Assembly (NCBI RefSeq): GCF_001642575.1
Contig: NZ_LXNG01000045.1
Span: 62,001-126,000, forward strand
Length of the DNA stretch: 64,000 nucleotides
DNA from: Xanthomonas floridensis
Lineage (GTDB): Bacteria > Pseudomonadota > Gammaproteobacteria > Xanthomonadales > Xanthomonadaceae
Direction: 5' to 3'
A model generated the notes under the pieces. The model made no database searches, was not told the DNA's origin, and was given only the letters and a program-made list of their open reading frames with translations. Below, piece after piece: positions 6,720-63,581 of the stretch; the stretch's first letter is position 1, and every line of letters starts with the position of its first letter. A program made the position numbers and the translations under genes.

Positions 6720-9700
6720 TCAGCGCCCCTCCGGCACTGAACCCAGTAACTCAATCTCCGCCACCTGCGCACGCGCGGGCGCCGTCCAGCGCAGCCGATA
6801 CTCCGCATACAAGCCGGGCGTCGCGATCCGGAACGGGCGCGTTTGCAGCGGCCATTGAAAACGCTCCTCGCGGCGCGCATCGACGACGCGCCACGTGCCT
6901 GCTGCAGTGCGTGCTTCCAGCGTCCACGCCGCCTGCGCAATCGCGGCGTTGCCGCTGGTCACGGTGTAAAGCGTGGCCTCACCGCGATCAAGACCGCTCA
7001 ACGTCAGTACCGTGGCCGGCGACACCGCGCTCGCGCTGCCCGCATCGTCGTCATGCAACGCCGCCAGCGCGCGACCATCGGCCTGCGTCACGCGTGCGCT
7101 GGCACCCAGCAGGTCACGCAAGGGAGCAGGGCGGTGCCCGGCGGGCGTCAACGACGGTGGCGCAGCGTCCGGCTCGCTGCCCCAGCGCGATGGCGCTGGC
7201 CCCATCACGAAATCCAGCGTTGCGCCATTGGCAATCGCCGCATGCGGCAACCAGGTCTTGCGCCACGGCTTGCCGTTGAGCGTGAGCGATTGCACGTACA
7301 CGTTCTGCGCTGAATTCTGCGGGGCATTGACGGTCAGCGTGCCGCCGCCAGGCAGTCGCACGCGTGCGTGCCGGAACAACGGCGAGCCGATCACGTACTC
7401 CGGCGCGCCCATGCGCAAGGGGTAAATGCCCAGCGCGGCGAACAGATACCACGCCGACATCTCGCCGTTGTCTTCGTCGCCGGCATAGCCCTGGCCGATC
7501 TCGCTGCCCAGGTATAGCCGCGACAGGATCTCGCGCGTCAGTCGCTGGGTCTTCCACGGCTGCCCGGCGTACAGATACATCCACGGGATGTGGTGCGCCG
7601 GCTGGTTGCTGTGCGCATACATGCCCATGCGCACATCGCGTGCCTCGGTCATTTCGTGGATGGTGCCGCCATACGAACCGGAAAACGCTGCTTCGCCGGT
7701 TTCGGGCGTGGCGAAGAAGCGGTCCAGCTTTGCCGCCAGGGCATCGCGCCCGCCGTAGAGCGCGGCCAAGCCCTGGCCATCGTGCGGTGCAGTGAACGCA
7801 AAGGTCCAGCCGCTGGATTCGGTGTAGTCGTTGCCCCAGACACGCGGGTCGTAGTGCGCGGTATCCACCCGCCATCGGCCCTCTGCGGTGCGGCCCTGGA
7901 AGAAGCCGATCGACGGATCGAACAGGGCCGCATAGCCGGCCGCGCGATGACGGAAGTACATCGCCTCGGTCGCATAGCGCTCACGCTCGTGGGCCGTGGT
8001 TGCCTGCTTGGCTAGAGCCTCGGCCATGTTGGCGATACCGAAGTCGTTGAGTGCACCTTCCATCGACCATGACATGCCTTCGTGCGTGTCGGTGTCCGCA
8101 TAGCCGCGAAAGGTCGAGCGCGCCATGCCCTTGCGGCCCACATGCCGATCCGGCGGCACCACGCTGGCGTTCTTCAGTGCTGCCGCATACGCCTCGGCCG
8201 GGTCGAAGCCGCGCACGCCCTTGAGCCAGGCATCGGCAAATGCCACGTCCGAGCTGGTGCCCACCATCAGGTCGGCGTAGCCGGGCGAGGACCAGCGTGC
8301 GATCCAGCCCCCGGCGCGTGCCTGCTCCACGAAGCCCTGTACCAGCAGTCCGGCATCGTCGGGTGCAAACAGCGCATAGGCCGGCCAGGCGGTGCGAAAG
8401 GTATCCCACAAGCCGTTGTTGACGTACACCCGCCCGTCGCGCACCGGCGCAAAGCTGCGCACCGCGCTGCCATCGACGTTGTCGTCCGACCAGCTGTTCT
8501 GGCTGGCATAGCGCCAGTCCGGCGACTGTGCGCTCCCCACGTTTTCGTGCCCGGAGTTCGGATACAGGTAGAGCCGGTACAGATTGGAATACAGCGTGGT
8601 TTTCTGGTCGGGCGTCGCATCGGCGACCTCGATCCGCCCCAGCAGCGCATCCCAGGCGTCCTGCGCACGCGCAGCGACCTGCTCGACACTCGCCTGCGGC
8701 GCGATCTCCAAGGCCAGGTTGTGCTTGGCCTGTTCGAGCGAAATCAGCGAGGTTGCGATGCGCATCTGTACCTGCCGCGTGCTGCCAGGATCGAACTTGA
8801 TCCAGCCGGTTGGCCGCCCGCTCGCGATGCGGCCGCTGGCTGTCCACGGCCGGTCGAACCTGGCATACACGTACATGCGCGTGGCCCCGGTCGACAGGCC
8901 GCTGCGCACATCGGTGTAACCGGACAGGGTTTGCGTATGGGCATCCAGCTGCAAACCGCCACGCGCATCTACGTTGTCGAACAGCAGGTTGGCATCACCG
9001 TGCTCGGGAAAGCGGAAGCGGAACAGCGCCGCGTGATCGGTGGGCGCAATCTCGGCATGGATGCCGTTGTCCAGCTGCACTGCATAACGATAGGGACGCG
9101 CGACTTCGTTGGCGTGCGAGAACGCCAGCGCGCGTTTACCGCGATCGGCCTCCGGCACACCCGCGCTCAGCGACGGCATCACCTGGAACGTCTGCCGGTC
9201 GCCCATCCACGGACTGGGCTGATGGCTGAGCGACAACGCCTGCAGGCGCGGCCGATTGTCGGCGTCGTTCTGCTCGTTCCAGCGATACAGCCAGGTCAGC
9301 GTCCCCGCATCGGTCACCGGCGTCCAGAAATTGAAGCCGTGCGGCACTGCCGTTGCAGGGAGGTTGTTGCCGCGCGAGAACGTGCCATTGGAGTGCGTGC
9401 CGCGCGTGGTCAACACCCAGTCCGAGGGACGTGCAGGCATCGTCAGTGGCACCTCGCCCAGCACTACATCGTCGATCCAGCCCGCACTGGCGCTACCCGC
9501 AGGCGGGGCAATCTCCAGCTCGATGGCCACCACACGCCGCCCACGCAGCGCGGCGACGTCACCCAACCGCACCTGCTTGCTGGCCCACTGCTGCGGGTAC
9601 AGCGTCTTCGAATCGCCTTGCGCGTGTGCACCGACTGCGATGCCATGCTGGTCGCGTGCAGAACTGGTAGACACGCGCGTACCGTCATCCAATCGCAGAT

Positions 9701-10064
9701 CCAGCGAGACATAGGTGGATGCCACCTGATCGTTGCCGACGCTTTCCGGCAGCACCATCCACGACAAGGTGGTCTGCGCATCGACCACGAGGTTGACGTC
9801 AAACAGGCGGCGCCGGCCGCCGGTATTGCCACTGCGATAGTGCAACGCATGCGCACCGCTGTAGCCGGCAGCCGGCTTGGCCGCATAGGGCGCCACCGGT
9901 CCGGCGCCGAGCGCGATCTGCACATTGCCTCCGGTCAGCTCGACCGGCGTTGGCTGCCCCGGCTCGAACGAACTCGCAAATCCAACCGCCGCAGCGGCGT
10001 GCATCGGCGCGATTGCCAGCGCCACCGCCAATGGCAGATGCCGCACAACGACAGACAGACTCAC
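6720..10064 (-). CDS. Secreted GH92 family alpha-mannosidase
   Basis: This gene encodes a 1114-residue glycoside hydrolase of family 92, whose members are calcium-dependent exo-alpha-mannosidases. The GTG at 10064 is chosen because AGGAGG lies nine bases upstream and the product begins with a signal peptide (VSLSVVVRHLPLAVALAIAPMHAAAA). An N-terminal carbohydrate-binding-like jelly-roll region precedes the GH92 beta-sandwich, which starts near the PRGTHSNGTFSRGNN type motif. The catalytic (alpha/alpha)6 barrel shows the conserved stretches SWSDDNVDGS, LWDTFRTAWPAYAL and GYAGDEDNGEMSAWYLFAALG. About 200 further residues at the C terminus resemble a discoidin-type accessory module. It probably acts in the periplasm or outside the cell on host mannose-containing glycans. 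No transporter or other glycosidase is adjacent. Confidence 0.88.
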   Translation of the reverse strand: MSLSVVVRHLPLAVALAIAPMHAAAAVGFASSFEPGQPTPVELTGGNVQIALGAGPVAPYAAKPAAGYSGAHALHYRSGNTGGRRRLFDVNLVVDAQTTLSWMVLPESVGNDQVASTYVSLDLRLDDGTRVSTSSARDQHGIAVGAHAQGDSKTLYPQQWASKQVRLGDVAALRGRRVVAIELEIAPPAGSASAGWIDDVVLGEVPLTMPARPSDWVLTTRGTHSNGTFSRGNNLPATAVPHGFNFWTPVTDAGTLTWLYRWNEQNDADNRPRLQALSLSHQPSPWMGDRQTFQVMPSLSAGVPEADRGKRALAFSHANEVARPYRYAVQLDNGIHAEIAPTDHAALFRFRFPEHGDANLLFDNVDARGGLQLDAHTQTLSGYTDVRSGLSTGATRMYVYARFDRPWTASGRIASGRPTGWIKFDPGSTRQVQMRIATSLISLEQAKHNLALEIAPQASVEQVAARAQDAWDALLGRIEVADATPDQKTTLYSNLYRLYLYPNSGHENVGSAQSPDWRYASQNSWSDDNVDGSAVRSFAPVRDGRVYVNNGLWDTFRTAWPAYALFAPDDAGLLVQGFVEQARAGGWIARWSSPGYADLMVGTSSDVAFADAWLKGVRGFDPAEAYAAALKNASVVPPDRHVGRKGMARSTFRGYADTDTHEGMSWSMEGALNDFGIANMAEALAKQATTAHERERYATEAMYFRHRAAGYAALFDPSIGFFQGRTAEGRWRVDTAHYDPRVWGNDYTESSGWTFAFTAPHDGQGLAALYGGRDALAAKLDRFFATPETGEAAFSGSYGGTIHEMTEARDVRMGMYAHSNQPAHHIPWMYLYAGQPWKTQRLTREILSRLYLGSEIGQGYAGDEDNGEMSAWYLFAALGIYPLRMGAPEYVIGSPLFRHARVRLPGGGTLTVNAPQNSAQNVYVQSLTLNGKPWRKTWLPHAAIANGATLDFVMGPAPSRWGSEPDAAPPSLTPAGHRPAPLRDLLGASARVTQADGRALAALHDDDAGSASAVSPATVLTLSGLDRGEATLYTVTSGNAAIAQAAWTLEARTAAGTWRVVDARREERFQWPLQTRPFRIATPGLYAEYRLRWTAPARAQVAEIELLGSVPEGR

Positions 10065-10880
10065 GTGATGGTGCCTCCTGGGTTGGGTTGCCGGGCAGCA
10101 TGCTCGATGGCCAATGCTCTTGTGGTGCTTTGGTACTGCTTGCCGGACGGCCCCGTGGTGACTGCCTGGCTGATCGCGCGTTCCCGACGCAGATGCAGCG
10201 CGAAGCAAACCGCATCTCCATCCAGGCCGGGCATGCGCGCCGCTGCTGGGCATCGGCATGTCTCCCGGCCGCGTGGCGCTTGCCTGATGTCGCCTCACGA
10301 CACCAGGCCAGTCAAGTTTCGGTGCCGGCCGATCCTGGGCAAAATGCCGTGCGGACGCAAGCGAGCTGTGCATTGCGCGTGTGCAAGGACGCAGGCAGGT
10401 GCGTCGCCAGGTCAAGAACACCGCGGCAGCCAGACACCGGCGTTTCGCTCAACCCCAAGGTATGGCCCACGACGCGTCACTCGGATGGTGCAAGACAGTC
10501 TGGCTAGTTCTGGGACAGTGCCGCTGACGCCAGAGAGTCACGTCAGGACGCCATGCACCAGGGCCACGCGGATTCGTCATCACCAGGCCAAGCGTTGGTG
10601 GAGCGGCATTGCATTTTCATCACCGGGAGTGTCTGGAGCCGGCGTGCCCGGATCCCACCCCGGCGTCTTGCTTCCCCCAGCCGTCAGCTGTGTCGCTCAG
10701 CCGTGCGCGCCCCCAGGCGCGACACTGCTGCCCTCCACGTCGGCTGCGCTGGTCCTGTCGGCGCGCGCGGCATTGCCGCACCCGTCGGCTGGGCTGGCGC
10801 GCCTTGCGCCGCCGCCGCCCTGCGCAGACAGGCAGGCTGCTAGAATCCGCAGCCTGTCTTCGTTTCCCGATCGCACCGCC
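10065..10880. other. Long intergenic region upstream of the GH92 gene
   Basis: This is 816 bp with no recognisable gene on either strand. Open frames here are extensions of frames opposite the mannosidase and carry no motifs. A possible -10 hexamer TAGAAT lies at 10841-10846, inside an imperfect inverted repeat (AGACAGG / CCTGTCT), just upstream of the zinc-finger gene. Confidence 0.5.
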
Positions 10881-14594: not shown

Positions 14595-15911
14595 ATGCGG
14601 AAAGACCCGATCGAATGGCTGTTGCGTGGGCTGTACTCGGCGCTGTTGTATCTGTTGCTGCCGATCACGGTGTACCACCTGGTGTGGCGCGGTTTCCGCG
14701 TGCGCGAATACTTCAATCGCTGGAACGAGCGCTATGCGTCGTATACGCATGCCTGCGGCCGCCCGCGCGTGTGGGTGCATGCGGTATCGGTGGGCGAGGT
14801 CAACGCGGCCGCGCCGCTGGTCAACGCCTTGCGCGCGCAGCGGCCGGATATCCGTTGGGTCATCACCACCATCACGCCCACCGGCTCCGAACGCGTACGT
14901 GCGGTGTGGGGCGATGCGGTGGATCACGTCTATCTGCCGTACGACGTGCCCGGCAGCGTAGGGCGGTTTCTTGAGCACTTCCGCCCGCGGCTGGCGCTGA
15001 TCCTGGAAACCGAGTTGTGGCCGAACATGTTGTTCGGTTGTCGCGACCGCAAGATTCCGCTGTACATCCTCAACGCGCGGCTGTCGGCGCGCTCGTTGCG
15101 CGGCTATCGCGTGCTGGCGCCGTTGATCAGCCGCGCGCTGCGTACGGTGACCTGCGTGGCGGCGCAATCGCAGGACGATGCCGAACGCTTCCTTACCCTG
15201 GGTGCGCGGCCGGAGCAGGTGGTGGCGCTGGGTAATCTCAAATTCGATATCGCCGCGCCCGACCAATTGCAGGCGATGGTCACGCAGTTCCGCATCCATG
15301 TGCCGGCAACACGGCCGGTATGGATTGCCGCCAGCACGCATGAGGGCGAGGAGGCTGCGGTGGCCGATATCCATGCGCGGCTGCTGGCCGAGTTTCCCGA
15401 TCTGCTGCTGCTCTGGGCGCCACGCCATCCCGAGCGGTTTCCCAAGGTCGAGGCGTTGGCGCGCGAGCGCGGCTGGAGCGTGGCCACACGCAAGGTGCAG
15501 CAGTGGCCGCGGGCGCGCGACACGGTCTTCGTGCTTGATACCCTGGGTGAGCTGATGAGTTTCTATGCATGCGCGCAGGTCGCCTTCGTCGGCGGCAGCC
15601 TGCAGCCGATCGGTGGGCACAACCTGCTGGAGCCGGCAGCAGTGGGTACGCCGGCAGTGACCGGCCCGCATCTGCATAATTTTTCGGAAATCTCGCGGCG
15701 CATGCGCGAGGCCGATGCAGTTGCCATCTGCGAGGACGCCGATTGTGTGTATCGCGATCTGGCCCGGTTGCTGGGCAATCCCGCACAGCGCGAGGCGATG
15801 GCGGCCGCGGGCCTGGCGCTGGTGGCCAATGGCAAGGGCGCGGTGGCGCGGACGCTGGTGCAGATTGCGCCGGACCTGCCGCCGGTGGTTGGCGATGGTG
15901 TGACGTCTTGA
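14595..15911 (+). CDS. waaA: 3-deoxy-D-manno-octulosonic acid (Kdo) transferase
   Basis: WaaA (KdtA) transfers Kdo from CMP-Kdo to the lipid IVA precursor at the inner membrane. The 438-residue protein has the single N-terminal membrane anchor (LLRGLYSALLYLLLPITVY), the GT30 domain with WVHAVSVGEVNAA near residue 57 and ETELWPNM near residue 138, and the C-terminal CMP-Kdo site with GGSLQPIGGHNLLEPAAVGTP. The length is normal. It is transcribed divergently from the lpxL-type gene. Confidence 0.95.
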   Translation: MRKDPIEWLLRGLYSALLYLLLPITVYHLVWRGFRVREYFNRWNERYASYTHACGRPRVWVHAVSVGEVNAAAPLVNALRAQRPDIRWVITTITPTGSERVRAVWGDAVDHVYLPYDVPGSVGRFLEHFRPRLALILETELWPNMLFGCRDRKIPLYILNARLSARSLRGYRVLAPLISRALRTVTCVAAQSQDDAERFLTLGARPEQVVALGNLKFDIAAPDQLQAMVTQFRIHVPATRPVWIAASTHEGEEAAVADIHARLLAEFPDLLLLWAPRHPERFPKVEALARERGWSVATRKVQQWPRARDTVFVLDTLGELMSFYACAQVAFVGGSLQPIGGHNLLEPAAVGTPAVTGPHLHNFSEISRRMREADAVAICEDADCVYRDLARLLGNPAQREAMAAAGLALVANGKGAVARTLVQIAPDLPPVVGDGVTS

Positions 15912-16086
15912 AAGAGATAGCTGCGCATTTTGAATCGTTGCAGTGAATCTGTTGCAGTCATGCCCAATAACGTCATCAAGCGGTATTGGAGCAACCAATG
16001 AAACGTGGCGATCGCGCGGTCGTTTCGTTAGTCGCTGTACGGCGTCATCTGGAGAGTCTCCAGCCGCATTGGTCGAGAGCGCGGAG

Positions 16087-16176
16087 CCCTCACCGCTCGC
16101 GGGACACGCCGTGAATCCGTCCTTGGAGGCTCGGTGGCGGCATCCATGCCGCCACACGGTCCCGCAATCGGTGAGG
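16087..16176 (+). repeat. Hairpin repeat A, copy A1
   Basis: An outer inverted repeat pairs CCTCACCG-N4-CGGGAC at the left end with GTCCCG-N3-CGGTGAGG at the right. Inside, a conserved 5' stretch GGGACACGCCGTGAATCC is followed by a perfect 10-bp inner hairpin with a CC loop at 16134-16155 (arms GTGGCGGCAT and ATGCCGCCAC). Five further full or partial A copies lie at 28.5-29.4 kb and 63.3 kb. Confidence 0.85.
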
Positions 16177-16241
16177 ACACCGCACCAGAGAGTGAGTCGG
16201 TTACTTTGTTGAAAGCAATGCACACCGACCATCTTGACTGG

Positions 16242-16337
16242 TCCTTGCCCGCCCACCGTCGCGGGACCTTACGCGGCATGGATGCCGCGTAAGAGCCTAC
16301 AAGGACGTACTTGGGGCGTGTCCCGCGATGGTGGGCG
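16242..16337 (-). repeat. Hairpin repeat B, copy B1
   Basis: This copy is inverted relative to A1. Outer arms TTGCCCGCCCACCGTCGCGG and CGCGATGGTGGGC are complementary. The inner hairpin at 16269-16292 has perfect 11-bp arms TTACGCGGCAT and ATGCCGCGTAA around GG. Read on the minus strand it starts GGGACACGCC and shares GTCCTTG-AGGCTC and the GCGGCATCCATGCCGC core with element A, so A and B are homologous. Confidence 0.85.
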
Positions 16338-16464
16338 CGCGAGGACTCTGCAGCAAAGCCGCAGAGCCGCCGCTCCGCAATCGGCGCAATCGGCGCATTC
16401 ATAGCCTCAAGCTCCGCGAGCAGCTATCGCATGAAGCCGCCTGCATGCCAGATTGCATCGCGCA

Positions 16465-16494
16465 CAAAAAAGGCGGGCCTTCGCCCGCCTTTTT
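16465..16494 (-). terminator. Bidirectional terminator downstream of tolC
   Basis: An 8-bp GC stem (AGGCGGGC / GCCCGCCT) with a CTTC loop is flanked by A5 on one side and T5 on the other. It lies 19 bp past the tolC stop on the minus strand and could also stop transcription from waaA. Confidence 0.85.
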
Positions 16495-16513
16495 GGTCAC
16501 CTATCCGCTCGCA

Positions 16514-17896
16514 TTACTGCAGCGAACCGCTGCCTTGCAGCTTCGATTCGGCATCCTGCGACAGCAGACGATTGACGTCCTGCAGATCGGTGATGTCCAG
16601 CTTGCCGATGGCCTGGCCGAGCAGCAGGCGATTCTGCAGGAAGGTGTAGCGCGACTGTGCGTAGTTCAACTGCGCCTGGAACAGCGTGCGCTGGTTCTGC
16701 ACCACGTCCAGCACGGTACGCGTACCCACTTCCAGGCCCACCTGCGAGGCATCGTAGGCAGCCTGCGCGGAGACGACGGCCAGGCGGCGTGCTTCCACTT
16801 CGCTGATGCCGGCGACCACGGTCTGGTAGGCATTGCGCGTATTGCGGTCCAGCGCGCGCTTCTGCTGCTCGTAGGTGTCCTGCTGGATATCGCGACGCGA
16901 CAGCGCCTGACGCACGGCCGACTGCGTCGCACCGCCGGCAAAGATCGGGATCGATAGGGTGATGCCTACCGAATCGGTATCGATGTCGCGGCCCGCGGTG
17001 GTGAAGTTGCCTGCGGCCTGATCGACCGTGCCCTGGCCGCCCCAGCTATTGCTGCGGCCGATATTGGCGCCCAGGCTCAGGGTGGGGTAATGGCCGGCAC
17101 GCGCCGCATTGACCTGTGCCTCGGCTGCGCTGACCTGCAACTGCTGCGCCTTCAATGCCGGGTTGTCGGCGATGGCACTGGCCACCAATTGATCGACGTT
17201 GCTGTAAGCCGCCGGTACTTCCGGCCGGAAATCTTCTGGCAGCGCACGCAGGCCCACCACCGGCTGGCCGGTGAGTTCGGTCAACGCCTGGTAGTAATCC
17301 TTCAGTGTATTGCGTGCGTTGATGGTGTCGGCACGCGCCTGGTCGTACTGGGCGCGGGCTTCGTGTACGTCGGTGATCGGTGCCAGGCCCACTTCCAGGC
17401 GCTTATCCGCGTAGTCGAACTGCTTCTTGGCGGCGGCTTCGTTGGTTTCTGCTGCGGCCAACGACTCGATACCCACCAACACCTGGAAATACGCTGCAGA
17501 GGTGCGGGTGATCAGATCGTTGTTGGCCGATTCCAGGGTGAAGTCTGCTGCCTTGGCCACTTCGCGCTGCGCGCGCAAGTTGGCGAACTGCGCCCAGTTG
17601 AAAATGGTCTGGCTGCCCTGAACCGTGTACTGCCGCTGCTTGGTAGTGGAGCGACCATCCACGCCTTCCAGCTCGCGATGTGCCTGGGTATACCCGGCGC
17701 TACCGTCCAGCTGCGGCAACAGCGCCGCACGCGCCTGCACCTGTCCCTCCCGATTCACCAGCCGGGTGGACTCGGCCACGGCCAGCTGCGGATCGCCATT
17801 GCGGGCCATTTCGTAGACCTGCAGCAGATCGGTGGCATGCGCTGCCATCGGTGACAGGACGGCGGCCAGGGCCAGGGCGAGGGATCGGCGGATCAT
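16514..17896 (-). CDS. tolC: TolC family outer-membrane efflux/secretion channel
   Basis: This 460-residue protein is the trimeric outer-membrane channel shared by type I secretion systems and RND or MFS efflux pumps. The ATG at 17896 gives a signal peptide (MIRRSLALALAAVLSPMAAHA) followed by the typical mature start TDLLQVYEMARNGDP. Two repeats of alternating strands and long helices follow; the conserved segments SYTQ-like YTQAHRELEG, AYFQVLVGIESLAAAETN and GTRTVLDVVQNQRTLFQAQ are visible. AGGAAG lies upstream of this ATG, which rejects a longer in-frame start running into the neighbouring gene. The PCMT-like gene lies 20 bp upstream and is probably cotranscribed. Confidence 0.93.
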   Translation of the reverse strand: MIRRSLALALAAVLSPMAAHATDLLQVYEMARNGDPQLAVAESTRLVNREGQVQARAALLPQLDGSAGYTQAHRELEGVDGRSTTKQRQYTVQGSQTIFNWAQFANLRAQREVAKAADFTLESANNDLITRTSAAYFQVLVGIESLAAAETNEAAAKKQFDYADKRLEVGLAPITDVHEARAQYDQARADTINARNTLKDYYQALTELTGQPVVGLRALPEDFRPEVPAAYSNVDQLVASAIADNPALKAQQLQVSAAEAQVNAARAGHYPTLSLGANIGRSNSWGGQGTVDQAAGNFTTAGRDIDTDSVGITLSIPIFAGGATQSAVRQALSRRDIQQDTYEQQKRALDRNTRNAYQTVVAGISEVEARRLAVVSAQAAYDASQVGLEVGTRTVLDVVQNQRTLFQAQLNYAQSRYTFLQNRLLLGQAIGKLDITDLQDVNRLLSQDAESKLQGSGSLQ

Positions 17897-28267: not shown

Positions 28268-28490
28268 CGTCTGCGGAGCCCAGCGGTGGCGCGGTGCCGC
28301 TGGTTGATGCCGCTGATCGAAGAACGCTGCGTTCAAGAGGGGAGTCGTGCCTGCGGATTCCTTCTGCCACCGACCGTCACCGAAGGTGCGTGCGCGCATG
28401 CCGATACGCGTGCAAGTGCCCCAGTGGGCGAGGTATTTGCGCAGAACCGCAGGCCTCGTGCGTGGGGATGGTCGATGCGCGGCGCCGCAC

Positions 28491-28562
28491 CCGTGAGCGG
28501 GACACGCCATAAATCCGTCCCTGGAGGCTCGGTGGCGGCATCCATGCCGCCAACGGTCCCGC
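28491..28562 (+). repeat. Hairpin repeat A, copy A2
   Basis: The copy starts GAGCGGGACACGCCATAAAT and carries the inner hairpin GGTGGCGGCAT-CC-ATGCCGCC, ending ACGGTCCCGC. The inner stem has lost one base on the right arm (GCCAACGG instead of GCCACACGG). Confidence 0.85.
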
Positions 28563-28888
28563 CCCCGGGCGCGACACCACGATCCCGGCATTGCTACTGC
28601 TGATCGGCAAGCAATGCGTCAAGCAGGTGTTGATGCCTGCGGACTCGGTGGCCGATGTCATCGGCAAGCCATCCATCTGCTGTCACGCCGCCAGGAATGG
28701 ACGCTTGGAAAAAGTGCAGCTCATCTGGCTGTTCGCAGTTCTTTTCGCAACCGATAGCAACCGGTGGTGCTTGCGCGGGTGCACGCGCAAGCGCCCGCAG
28801 CAGACCGAAGCATTCGCATGGAAACGCGAGCTGTCGTACGCAAGATTGATCGGTATGCGGATTTGGTCGGTAGCGCGCGGCGCCGCAT

Positions 28889-28971
28889 CCGGTGTCGGGA
28901 CACGCCGTAAATCCGTCCCTGGAGGCTCGGTGGCGGCATCCATGCCGCCAACGGTCCCGCCTCCGGACGCG
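28889..28971 (+). repeat. Hairpin repeat A, copy A3
   Basis: Full copy: outer arms GCATCCGGTGTCGGGAC and GTCCCGCCTCCGGACGC pair through TCCGG/CCGGA and GGGAC/GTCCC. The inner hairpin is as in A2, with the same one-base loss on the right arm, so A2 and A3 share a recent origin. Confidence 0.85.
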
Positions 28972-29046
28972 TCACCACGCTCCCGGCATTGCTACTGCTG
29001 ATCGGCAAGCAATGCGTCAAGCAGGTGTTGATGCCTACGGACTCCG

Positions 29047-29078
29047 TCATGCCGCCAACGGTCCCGCCTCCGGACGCG
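29047..29078 (+). repeat. Hairpin repeat A, partial copy (right half)
   Basis: Only the right half, from TCATGCCGCCAACGGTCCCG to CCTCCGGACGC, is present, fused to truncated linker L2. It is identical to the right half of A3 and marks the junction of a duplication or deletion inside the array. Confidence 0.75.
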
Positions 29079-29358
29079 ACACCATCTCCCGGCATTGCTA
29101 CTGCTGATTGGCAAGCAATGCGTCAAGCAGGTGTTGATGCCTGCGGACTCGGTGGCCGATGTAATCGGCAAGCCATCCATCTGCTGTCACGCCGCCAGGA
29201 ATGGTCGCTTGGAGAAGTGCAGCTCATCTGGCTGTTCGCATTTCTTTCCGCAACCGATAGCAAGCGCCCGCAGCAGACCGAAGCATTCGCGTGGAACTCC
29301 AGGTGTCGTGCACAAGATTGATGGGTGTTCGGAGTCGGTCGGCAGCGCGGCGCCGCAT

Positions 29359-29441
29359 CCGGTGTCGGGACACGCCGTGAATCCATCCCTGGAGGCTCGG
29401 TGGCGGCATTCATGCCGCCACACGGTCCCGCCCCCAGACGC
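29359..29441 (+). repeat. Hairpin repeat A, copy A4
   Basis: Full copy with CCGGTGTCGGGACACGCCGT at the left, inner hairpin GTGGCGGCAT-TC-ATGCCGCCAC and CACGGTCCCGC at the right. The inner loop has changed from CC to TC while the arms stay perfectly paired. Confidence 0.85.
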
Positions 29442-29645
29442 GACCCCACGCTCCCAACATTGCCGCCGCTGATCGGCAAGCAATGCTTTAAGCAAAACGT
29501 TGACGCCTGCGGACTTCGTGGCTGATGTAATCGGCAAGCTATTTATCTGCTCACGTCGCCAGGATGGACGCTCCGAAGGACCTCCAGCCCAGCATGCCCT
29601 CTACATTTCTTTCCGCAACCGATAGCAGTTGGTGGTGTTTGCGCG

Positions 29646-29728
29646 GGTGCCGGCGTGGGACCTTGAGCGGCATGGATGCCGCGCCAGAGCCTACATGGAC
29701 GTACTTGCGGCGTGTCCCACGCCGGCAC
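29646..29728 (-). repeat. Hairpin repeat B, copy B2
   Basis: This copy closes the array in the orientation opposite to A2-A4. The outer arms GTGCCGGCGTGGGAC and GTCCCACGCCGGCAC are perfect complements. Compared with B1, C-to-T and G-to-A changes at the same paired position (CGGGAC/GTCCCG becomes TGGGAC/GTCCCA) keep the stem intact. The inner hairpin core is GCGGCAT-GG-ATGCCGC. Confidence 0.8.
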
Positions 29729-29762
29729 ACGTGCAAGCGCCCGCAGCAGATCGAAGCATTCC

Positions 29763-41079: not shown

Positions 41080-41267
41080 TAGGGAGAGAGAGCAGTTTCT
41101 TGTCGTTATGCGGGCAGGCTAGCCAGGGGGCATGCCGTGGAAATGTCGGTGCATGTCAGGGGCGCGGGGTGTGTTCAGCTGTGGCGAGGCGGGCCGTATG
41201 GGTGGCACGCACGCCCAGGCGGCATTAGCGCATGCCGCATGTCTTGGCGATGTGGTTTAATCGCCGC

Positions 41268-41351
41268 CGAAGTGGGGGTACCGCAGCACCGTTGCGGTTG
41301 AGATAGTCCCTTGGAACCTGATCCGGCTCATACCGGCGTAGGGAAGCTTCG
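41268..41351 (+). promoter_or_regulatory. TPP riboswitch (THI element) of thiC
   Basis: The conserved thiamine pyrophosphate aptamer is readable: P1 arms CGAAG and CTTCG, GGGGGTA, TTGAGATAGTCCCTTGGAAC, then CTGATCCGGCTCATACCGGC and GTAGGGAAG. It lies 124 bp upstream of the thiC start. In this position the riboswitch normally represses thiC when TPP is abundant. No clear terminator is seen in the expression platform, so control may act on translation. Confidence 0.95.
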
Positions 41352-41355
41352 TTAG

Positions 41356-43353
<1,998 letters not shown>

Positions 43354-43756
43354 CCGGGTCATTCGGTTGCACGGCAGCCTGCGTGAGGCGCGGGCTGCTT
43401 AGGAACAGTTCAGCAAGTTTTTGTGCAGATTGCAGCGGCCCCCGCAAGTGCCGCGCTGCAGCCAAGTTGCAAGCGGTTACATAATTCAAGGCTTGTGGGC
43501 CGTCTAACTGAATCGCAGATAAAAAAATCGCGCCAGAAGGCGCGAAGGGAATATCGTAATTATTTGAATTCGTCGGCGAGAGAGAGAGAGCCTGACGTCA
43601 CTGCCTGTCATAGGAAGCAACGGGCCATAGAGTAAAATTTGCACCAAATGGATGCATGACACAGTCGGTCGTCGTCCTTTGCTGAATTTGGCGCTTCGCA
43701 GCTTTCGGGTGTTGCGTCTTCTGTGGTTCTTGCATGCCGATGCCTGTTTTTTGCCG
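43354..43756. other. Intergenic region between thiC and the winged-helix regulator
   Basis: It contains a GC hairpin (GCAGCC...GGCTGC, 43373-43398 region) soon after thiC, an orphan minus-strand terminator at 43521-43545, and a short GA run (43581-43590). No gene is recognised. Confidence 0.5.
43521..43545 (-). terminator. Orphan minus-strand rho-independent terminator
   Basis: On the minus strand, TCGCGCC, TTCT loop, GGCGCGA is followed by seven T. Both flanking genes run on the plus strand, so no known transcript ends here. It may terminate a small RNA that starts between 43546 and the regulator gene. Confidence 0.75.
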
Positions 43757-59550: not shown

Positions 59551-59690
59551 AAAGAAAAACCCCGGCCATACGAGATGACCGGGGCAGAATAACGCCAGTA
59601 GTGAGCTTGCTCAGAGCCCCGACAGCATGAGCTCCCTGGGGATTTGGCCTCTTGGGGAGTAGGACCAAAGGGATGCTGCGACTGGCGTTC
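59551..59690 (-). ncRNA. Candidate small structured RNA with terminator
   Basis: Read on the minus strand, 59689-59591 folds into nested helices: P1 AACGCCAGT/ACTGGCGTT (9 bp), P2 CAGCAT/ATGCTG, P3 CCCT/AGGG, P4 TTTGG/CCAAA closing a C-rich loop (CTACTCCCC), and a side hairpin TGAG-CAAG-CTCA. Six bases later a terminator follows: CCCCGG + CAT / ATG + CCGGGG with one mismatch, then TTTTTCTTT (59551-59584). A possible -10, TATGCT, lies just upstream of P1. It has no open frame. C-rich loops in Xanthomonas sRNAs such as sX13 are known to pair with G-rich ribosome-binding sites, so a similar role is possible. I cannot match it to a named RNA. Confidence 0.7.
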
Positions 59691-62949: not shown

Positions 62950-63082
62950 GGCATTGCGTGTTAGGCCAATGCGGCCTTTGCATCGCCGAATTGCGCTGAC
63001 TCGCAATCTCCCGGTCGCCTTGAGAGGCGATTGAACGATGCAGGCAGTTGTGGAGCGGCCAACCTGCGAGTGTTCTGCAGGG

Positions 63083-63186
63083 CCCTTGCCCGCCCACCGT
63101 CGCGGGACACGCTGCAAGTACGTCCTTGTAAGCTCTTACGCGGCATCCATGTCGCGTAAGGTCCCGCGCCGGTGAGCGGGCAAGGA
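63083..63186 (+). repeat. Hairpin repeat B, copy B3
   Basis: Near-complete copy in the opposite orientation to B1: CTTGCCCGCCCACCGTCGCG at the left, CGCGCCGGTGAGCGGGCAAG at the right. The inner hairpin TTACGCGGCAT-CC-ATGTCGCGTAA has one mismatch. Confidence 0.85.
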
Positions 63187-63331
63187 CCAGACGAGGGTGT
63201 CGGTGCGCATGGTGCAAGCAGTGCATGACGTGCGTTGTTTGGATAGTGGCGCTTTGGGTCTGCATCTCACTGCAGGCAGAGCAATAGGCGGAGGTCTCAA
63301 CAAAGCAGCCAGCAAACTGTCTGGTGCGGTG

Positions 63332-63422
63332 TCCTCATCGCTTGCGGGACCGTGTGGCGGCATGGATGCCGCCACCGAGCCCCCAGGGACGGGTTGACGG
63401 CGTGTCCTGCAAGCGGTGAGGG
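63332..63422 (-). repeat. Hairpin repeat A, copy A5
   Basis: Copy inverted relative to A1. The inner hairpin arms GTGGCGGCAT / ATGCCGCCAC are perfect, and the outer arms CCTCATCGCTTGCGGGAC and TCCTGCAAGCGGTGAGG pair. Flank GACACCGCACCAGA matches the flank of A1 on the linker side. Confidence 0.85.
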
Positions 63423-63581
63423 CACCGCGCGCTCAACTAGCCAGGCGTTTGACCTAAACATTCCGCTGCATTTAGAGAGGCCAACAAACCGTGGCGAGCG
63501 CCCCGCCTGACGGCCGCGCAGTAGCTTTGTTAGCCGCTCTTCAGCGTGTGCCGCCAAAGATCGCCGCCATTGCCTGATCGA

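Follow-up and report, generated by a model that had tools for sequence, protein, structure and literature searches.

A facing-pair hairpin repeat of Xanthomonadaceae with putative RsmA-type loops on one strand

A repetitive extragenic palindromic (REP) sequence carries a 5' GT(A/G)G head next to its palindrome, and a GTAGGAGCGCACC-type REP is listed for Xanthomonas by Nunvar and colleagues (PMC2817692). CsrA and RsmE bind RUACARGGAUGU, with six-nucleotide loops of the form ANGGAN in which N is variable (PMC7652899). In X. campestris, RsmU is processed from the 3' untranslated region (UTR) of comEA and binds RsmA (PMC7694677); RsmB/CsrB homologues were not found in Xanthomonas according to the excerpts of PMC3937308 and PMC7694677, and RsmA control may there use an undiscovered mechanism. 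Here, we analysed a 64-kb stretch of Xanthomonas floridensis DNA (contig NZ_LXNG01000045.1, positions 62,001 to 126,000; hereafter the window) that holds inverted pairs of homologous hairpin repeats, units A and B, joined by a linker into composites. Each unit presents two ANGGAN loops on one strand. We give an even chance to the reading that this is a REPIN/BIME-like repeat of Xanthomonadaceae (REPIN, REP doublet forming hairpins; BIME, bacterial interspersed mosaic element) whose units would be two-site CsrA/RsmA-type RNA modules, spread into 3' untranslated RNA. No description of the repeat was found in the literature searched, subscription papers being largely outside it.

Facing pairs of a three-way-junction unit

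The repeat pair that an original prediction had placed at this locus is confirmed. Eight homologous units, each of about 116 nt with a three-way-junction fold, are present in the window:

16073..16189, plus strand: unit A1, three-way-junction hairpin in A orientation; its GGA-loop strand is the minus strand, with CATGGATG and CAAGGACG on the complementary strand
16190..16236: linker of composite 1, 47 nt
16237..16352, minus strand: unit B1, the inverted homologue, with its GGA loops on the plus strand, in the sense direction of the gene at 14595-15911
16471..16486: stem-loop that resembles a terminator and has T-runs on each strand, placed by a consensus scan downstream of composite 1
28472..28584, plus strand: unit A3 of the array
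28871..28984, plus strand: unit A4 of the array
29048..29073, plus strand: A-unit fragment of the array, 3' end only, place approximate (L026 1183-1208)
29339..29455, plus strand: unit A5 of the array, with just one of its two sites of the octamer CANGGANG intact
29631..29746, minus strand: unit B3, which closes the array
63076..63191, plus strand: unit B2 of composite 2
63192..63319: linker of composite 2, 128 nt
63320..63436, minus strand: unit A2 of composite 2

The claimed homology and inversion of A1 and B1 hold, with 82% complementarity between 16097-16152 and 16273-16328. Composite 1 (16073-16352) and composite 2 (63076-63436) are both facing pairs, A followed by the linker and an inward-pointing B. 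The second, correctly predicted to have the same order on the opposite strand, matches the first at 87% (16072-16212 with 63297-63437) and 84% (16218-16380 with 63048-63210), and its linker, described as about 80 bp longer, measures 128 nt against 47 nt between the modelled units. While the prediction was right about the two composites, it had overlooked the array at 28472-29746 (three A units, one fragment and one B), the three-way junction and the ANGGAN loops of the complementary strand. Judged by eye, another palindromic repeat, AGCGACCAACAAAACG...CGTTTTGTTAGCCGCT-like, lies just outside both composites (15985-16035 and 63480-63540) and near other composites too.

The folded unit has three parts: a long outer stem extending into the flanking sequence, a small hairpin and a hairpin at the apex. 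Among 42 units, compensatory changes occur in 25 of 42 pairs, a number reached by none of 500 shuffles (mean 17.6), and the first eight units already show them in 13 of 31 pairs. In this 42-unit fold 93.4% of the cells pair, compared with 36-39% when partners are slid by 1-3 columns; the fold was derived from the same sequences, which biases the slide control towards it, the shuffle control and the units of other genera being less affected. The structure obtained from the 42 units was then used to analyse 212 Xanthomonas units. The folds are very stable, with z down to -7.7. No Rfam family matched the repeat above threshold in scans of the whole window and of 15900-16600 at E up to 1, the best overlap being Ysr224 at 26.7 bits for a threshold of 70.

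In the source genome (5.25 Mb, 58 contigs), blastn returned 55 matches and a covariance model 118 rows, of which 84 were used and 34 dropped (33 opposite-strand images of listed units and a weak singleton, C16:114798, at 38.9 bits); one used partner scores just 34.6 bits (C12:74674). The 84 units group into 38 clusters, six of which contain a single unit. Of the 46 neighbouring pairs, 34 are facing (+-), 8 divergent (-+, mostly joints within arrays), 4 ++ and none --. The independent occurrence of A and B in random relative orientation was thus not seen: opposite-strand neighbours outnumber same-strand neighbours by 42 to 4 (p = 5e-9). Linkers of the 34 facing pairs measure 45-47 nt (10), 76-98 nt (11), 117-143 nt (9) or 175-283 nt (4). 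Arrays alternate, as in C13 (+-+-+-+) and C34 (+-+-+-), and same-strand arrays exist too (+++- in C45 and C55). In three 400-kb stretches of genomes G020, G021 and G023, neighbours less than 700 nt apart comprise 31 +-, 11 -+, 2 -- and 2 ++, and all 31 facing pairs consist of one A and one B. The best 150 matches in G023, all at 115-133 bits, give 35 +-, 8 ++, 5 -+ and 3 -- among neighbours within 500 nt. These counts support the inverted pair as the prevailing unit. The claim that the pair is what spreads is borne out in part: the facing order prevails (34 of 46 here, 31 of 46 in the three stretches), and divergent, back-to-back, solitary and partial units also occur, including two divergent two-unit clusters (G023:106905 and 314691).

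All 35 Xanthomonas genomes examined contain matches. Copies of the exact core pattern range from 0 (G018, G024) to about 230, with 173 in G031 and 194-232 in G020-G023. A sample of 119 genomes of the family, surveyed under strict filtering with no more than 31 candidates per genome being scored, yielded 30 with matches; five belong to the same genus, and the remaining 25 (of 114 genomes outside the genus) represent 14 of the 53 other genera sampled. One genome of another genus, G079, has facing pairs, several with linkers of about 50 nt, and a second, G097, has 61 units, none less than 535 nt apart start to start. At three G097 loci (L284, L287, L290), several units are nested within a second palindrome, GTCATCCCG...GAGGAATCTGCTTT / AAAGCAGATTCCTC...CGGGATGAC.

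ANGGAN loops, 3' placement and the RsmA reading

Read on the strand opposite to the A/B orientation, the small and the apical hairpin each end in a C-G-closed ANGGAN hexaloop: the small hairpin reads UAC/UCC/CCC-ANGGAN-GUA/GGA/GGG and the apical hairpin ends C-AUGGAU-G. The pattern fits 204 (small loop) and 206 (apical loop) of the 212 Xanthomonas units. In other genera it fits 90 of 91 small loops and all 82 apical loops that could be scored, nine more being gapped. In the 204 fitting Xanthomonas units, the A and the GGA of the small loop are fixed and the free position varies (T 73, C 56, G 44, A 31). Two copies of the octamer CANGGANG are present in 196/212 Xanthomonas and 80/91 other-genus units, with a spacing of 23 nt start to start in 192 and 66 units, respectively, and the octamer is missing from the A/B strand in 197/212 and 80/91; both sites are present in seven of the eight units of the window and one in A5. 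A 23-nt spacing suits one dimer. The C-G-closed ANGGAN hexaloop is the consensus site of CsrA, RsmA and RsmE, and the loops of the repeat are putative sites of this type.

Minimum-energy folds of the complementary strand place GGA in at least one hairpin loop in 203/212 Xanthomonas and 83/91 other units, compared with 0/212 for the A/B strand and 18/212 for shuffled sequence. Among the ACANGGANGT sites of this genome, 24 of 100 listed (117 in all) fall in units, which make up 0.18% of the genome. Four further ACANGGANGT sites stand at an exact 48-base spacing outside the repeat family (G000:C23:83588-83741).

The wobble pairs point to the same strand. A selected complementary strand is expected to tolerate G.U, which appears as A.C on the A/B strand, and A.C outnumbers G.T there in A units (176:22; sign test over pairs, p = 0.004), in B units (90:35) and in the G097 units (36:5, p = 8e-5), which would make the complementary strand the G.U-tolerant one. 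This asymmetry is suggestive in favour of the complementary strand, related copies not being independent. In DNA also G.T is the milder mismatch, and the asymmetry alone is therefore compatible with a DNA hairpin as well.

Composites lie mostly at the 3' sides of genes. In the three 400-kb stretches, 17 of 27 lie between converging genes, compared with 80 of 413 background gaps (p = 2.5e-6), and none of the 27 between diverging genes, compared with 97 of 413 (p = 0.001); genes were called with a home-made gene finder, and background gaps were of at least 150 nt, unmatched for length beyond that cut. With the same finder and units masked, none of 35 clusters and none of the 61 G097 units are inside predicted genes. 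The solitary G097 units are in convergent gaps in 14 and divergent gaps in 7 of 61 cases. Since its units point towards one another, a composite read through from either side would give a transcript with one GGA-oriented unit, and because composites are mostly between converging genes, RsmA modules are possible in the 3' untranslated RNAs of both genes. At composite 1, the GGA strand of B1 is sense for the gene at 14595-15911, probably kdtA from its sequence, and B1 lies between the stop codon of this gene and the stem-loop at 16471-16486. Where one unit of the kdtA-tolC composite has been lost, B was kept both times (L103, L112), two cases that amount to an anecdote.

In the proposed mechanism, the two C-G-closed ANGGAN hexaloops of a unit, about 23 nt apart, would be bridged by one RsmA dimer, and the copies together could titrate RsmA or tune their host mRNAs. 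The architecture, the fold, the loop pattern, the 3' placement and the distribution are results of this analysis, to which we add the inference that composites may be transcribed and bound by RsmA and that titration or an effect on mRNA may follow.

The same placement could be explained by a two-way terminator or 3'-end protector, in which the large hairpins would halt or protect converging transcripts, the loops having no role of their own. It fits the predominance of convergent sites (17 of 27), the absence of divergent ones (0 of 27) and the stability of the folds. However, a terminator scan of 15900-16600 (two hits, 0.6 in shuffles) marked nothing at the units and only the separate stem-loop 16471-16486, and neither loop identity nor a one-strand GGA pattern is needed by such a device, which we regard as quite improbable.

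Several observations weigh against an RsmA module. Two GGA loops appear in the minimum-energy folds of just 57/212 Xanthomonas and 51/91 other units, and B units have competing pairing; the minimum-energy folds thus agree in part, and covariation backs the double-loop form better than folding energy does. Genome-wide, ACANGGANGT shows no enrichment (117 sites, 148 for the reversed-pattern control), and its excess is therefore local to the repeat. The wobble asymmetry of B units gives p = 0.38 by pair, and it is absent in the other 30 non-Xanthomonas units (A.C 21, G.T 32). In tandem settings, the GGA strand runs in the sense direction in 26 of the 40 G097 cases (p = 0.08, not significant) and in 1 of 3 cases for Xanthomonas one-orientation clusters, and no promoter-like site was found near composite 1. 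Very stable stems may weaken CsrA binding (PMC7652899), and GGA to AAU changes in RsmU did not abolish binding or function (PMC7694677). Finally, a DNA-binding protein could be what keeps the loops constant.

The Rfam scan of the window also marked a TPP (thiamine pyrophosphate) riboswitch at 41264-41362 and two small RNAs (sRNAs), Xoo1 at 43528-43621 and sX11 at 59551-59688.

Copy history and relation to mobile repeats

The architecture raises the alternative of a DNA-level mobile repeat, a larger REPIN-like element or miniature inverted-repeat transposable element (MITE), whose single-stranded or cruciform hairpins are copied by a trans-acting nuclease or transposase with the loops as recognition sites. 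The REPIN/BIME-like order and arrays, the 0 to ~230 exact-pattern copies among 35 congeners with matches in 14 of 53 other sampled genera, and the 115-133 bits of all 150 best G023 matches speak for it. Nevertheless, such an element does not predict a one-strand ANGGAN with a free N, and the sites, plasmid and phage searches, candidate mobilisers and long pair described below do not favour it either; we consider it unlikely.

Clean empty sites and recognizable target duplications, features that the original prediction proposed to tabulate, were found at none of the three sites compared. At kdtA-tolC, 24 Xanthomonas loci (L099-L122) inspected by eye include the full composite in five (L099, L101, L104, L108, L109), B alone in L103 and L112, decayed copies in L107, L110 and L113, and absence in ten; the composite of L102 is cut by the contig end, and L105, L106 and L111 are not comparable. 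No clean empty site was seen there, at a second site (17 of 21 genomes with both flanks matched) or at petC-sspA (18 of 20 compared, G020 and G021 being left out for lack of an anchor match). Sites free of the element keep remnants or unrelated sequence, with no recognizable target duplication, and the starts of three genomes were not collinear when compared. One intergenic site holds a lone B or one, two, 2.5 or 3.5 composites in different species, and at another the linker is short in G020 (47 nt) and long in G021 (124 nt). Where B units are partly duplicated in tandem, the breaks fall at or close to the small hairpin, whose sequence has been exchanged between A and B units. The sites thus record expansion, deletion and conversion but not insertion, as no clean empty version of them was met. 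Tandem partial B units bring flanking DNA along (L030 1805-2033, L081, L068 and L373 of G016), which suggests a recurrent breakpoint.

These histories would also suit old, now neutral repeats that gene conversion and tandem duplication keep alike, with no present role: orthologous sites differ between B alone, one, two or more composites and remnants, one linker differs between G020 and G021, and small-hairpin sequence passes between A and B. Yet pairing is compensated and loops are nearly invariant across genera while stems change, which implies constraint and makes neutrality very improbable.

Composite 1 (16050-16390) had no blastn match at E 1e-5 in 72,556 plasmid and 50,697 phage records. 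No autonomous copy with matching ends was present among the pairs seen, no genome having been searched exhaustively for one. In the three 400-kb stretches, the mapped neighbours within 6 kb of each other include one facing A-B pair, in G023, that stands 891 nt apart (L184 7260-8150); its interior, judged by eye, is a methyltransferase-like host gene and not a transposase, and the pair may be two solitary units, one A and one B, or a composite that has been stretched. An element end resembling that of an insertion sequence, TGAAGTGACCCCCAAAAGCTGG, was met three times in the loci examined, always on the + strand (L065 1731, L087 1781 and L191 19381) and each time within an A unit, in the small hairpin next to GTCCC/TGG; an insertion sequence with this end possibly targets A units, two of the three loci having been chosen for holding units.

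A REP-associated tyrosine (RAYT) transposase, which the original prediction proposed to look for as a correlate of the family, was tried as mobiliser and rejected: PF01797 (Y1) matches in the 35 genomes do not track copy number. Four genomes (G010, G012, G029, G033) have no PF01797 match, yet 72-95 model matches (opposite-strand images included, with counts limited to 106 per genome), and G024 has one Y1 match and 2 model matches. The neighbourhood was inspected for part of the 58 PF01797 matches. There was no A/B unit in eight loci (L091-L098; Y1 gene and 1.5 kb on each side where the contig allows), and in L259-L272 units are separated from the Y1 matches by some 5 kb or more. The Y1 gene of L259 is instead flanked by GTAG REPINs, GTAGGAGCGCACC..GTGCGCTCCTAC doublets at 8680-8752, 9033-9100, 9197-9262 and 10015-10085; two covariance-model matches near it (27-31 bits) proved false, being these REPINs.

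The A/B repeats resemble REPs, REPINs and BIMEs in being extragenic facing hairpin pairs with a linker, in alternating arrays and in copy numbers that reach the hundreds. They do not qualify as ordinary REPINs: the unit is a three-way junction of about 116 nt, far larger than a typical REPIN, as had been predicted, and than a REP of about 20-30 nt; the examined Y1 genes have no adjoining unit, that of L259 carrying its own GTAGGAGCGCACC REPINs; and the A/B loops are fixed as ANGGAN on one strand. The GTAG head is absent from A/B units, since A starts mostly TCGAG and B C(A)GGG, and the internal GTAGG of B units is mostly GGAGG/GGGGG in A units. Like MITEs, the composites are short and non-coding, with inverted ends and many copies; on the other hand, no target duplication was recognized at the sites compared and no parent transposon among the pairs seen, and most of the composite consists of its inverted ends.

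The repeat and RsmA control in Xanthomonas

Among RNAs, the two-site RsmA module that we favour would be closest to CsrB, RsmX/Y/Z and RsmU, with which the repeat shares hairpins with repeated GGA loops. RsmU also comes from a 3' UTR, and ACAAGGACGT of B1 is present downstream of a comEA-like gene in this genome as well. RsmU itself was considered as a family member and rejected, as the covariance model has no match at the comEA locus. By contrast with these single sRNA genes, A/B is a dispersed repeat. Xanthomonas goes unmentioned in the excerpts of a 2026 preprint on Csr/Rsm regulons (PMC12889724).

A broader proposition, which we hold tentatively and with less than even confidence, is that a mobile or amplifying family has dispersed hundreds of two-site RsmA-binding modules across the genomes of Xanthomonadaceae, mostly to 3' ends, as a distributed, genome-encoded sponge that would rewire post-transcriptional control with copy number and might be part of RsmA antagonism without CsrB/RsmB homologues. 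If true, this would be a repeat whose spreading sites are bound by an RNA-binding regulator and not by a DNA-binding factor. With up to about 230 exact-pattern copies per genome and two RsmA-type hairpins predicted per unit, the question of the missing RsmB/CsrB becomes directly testable.
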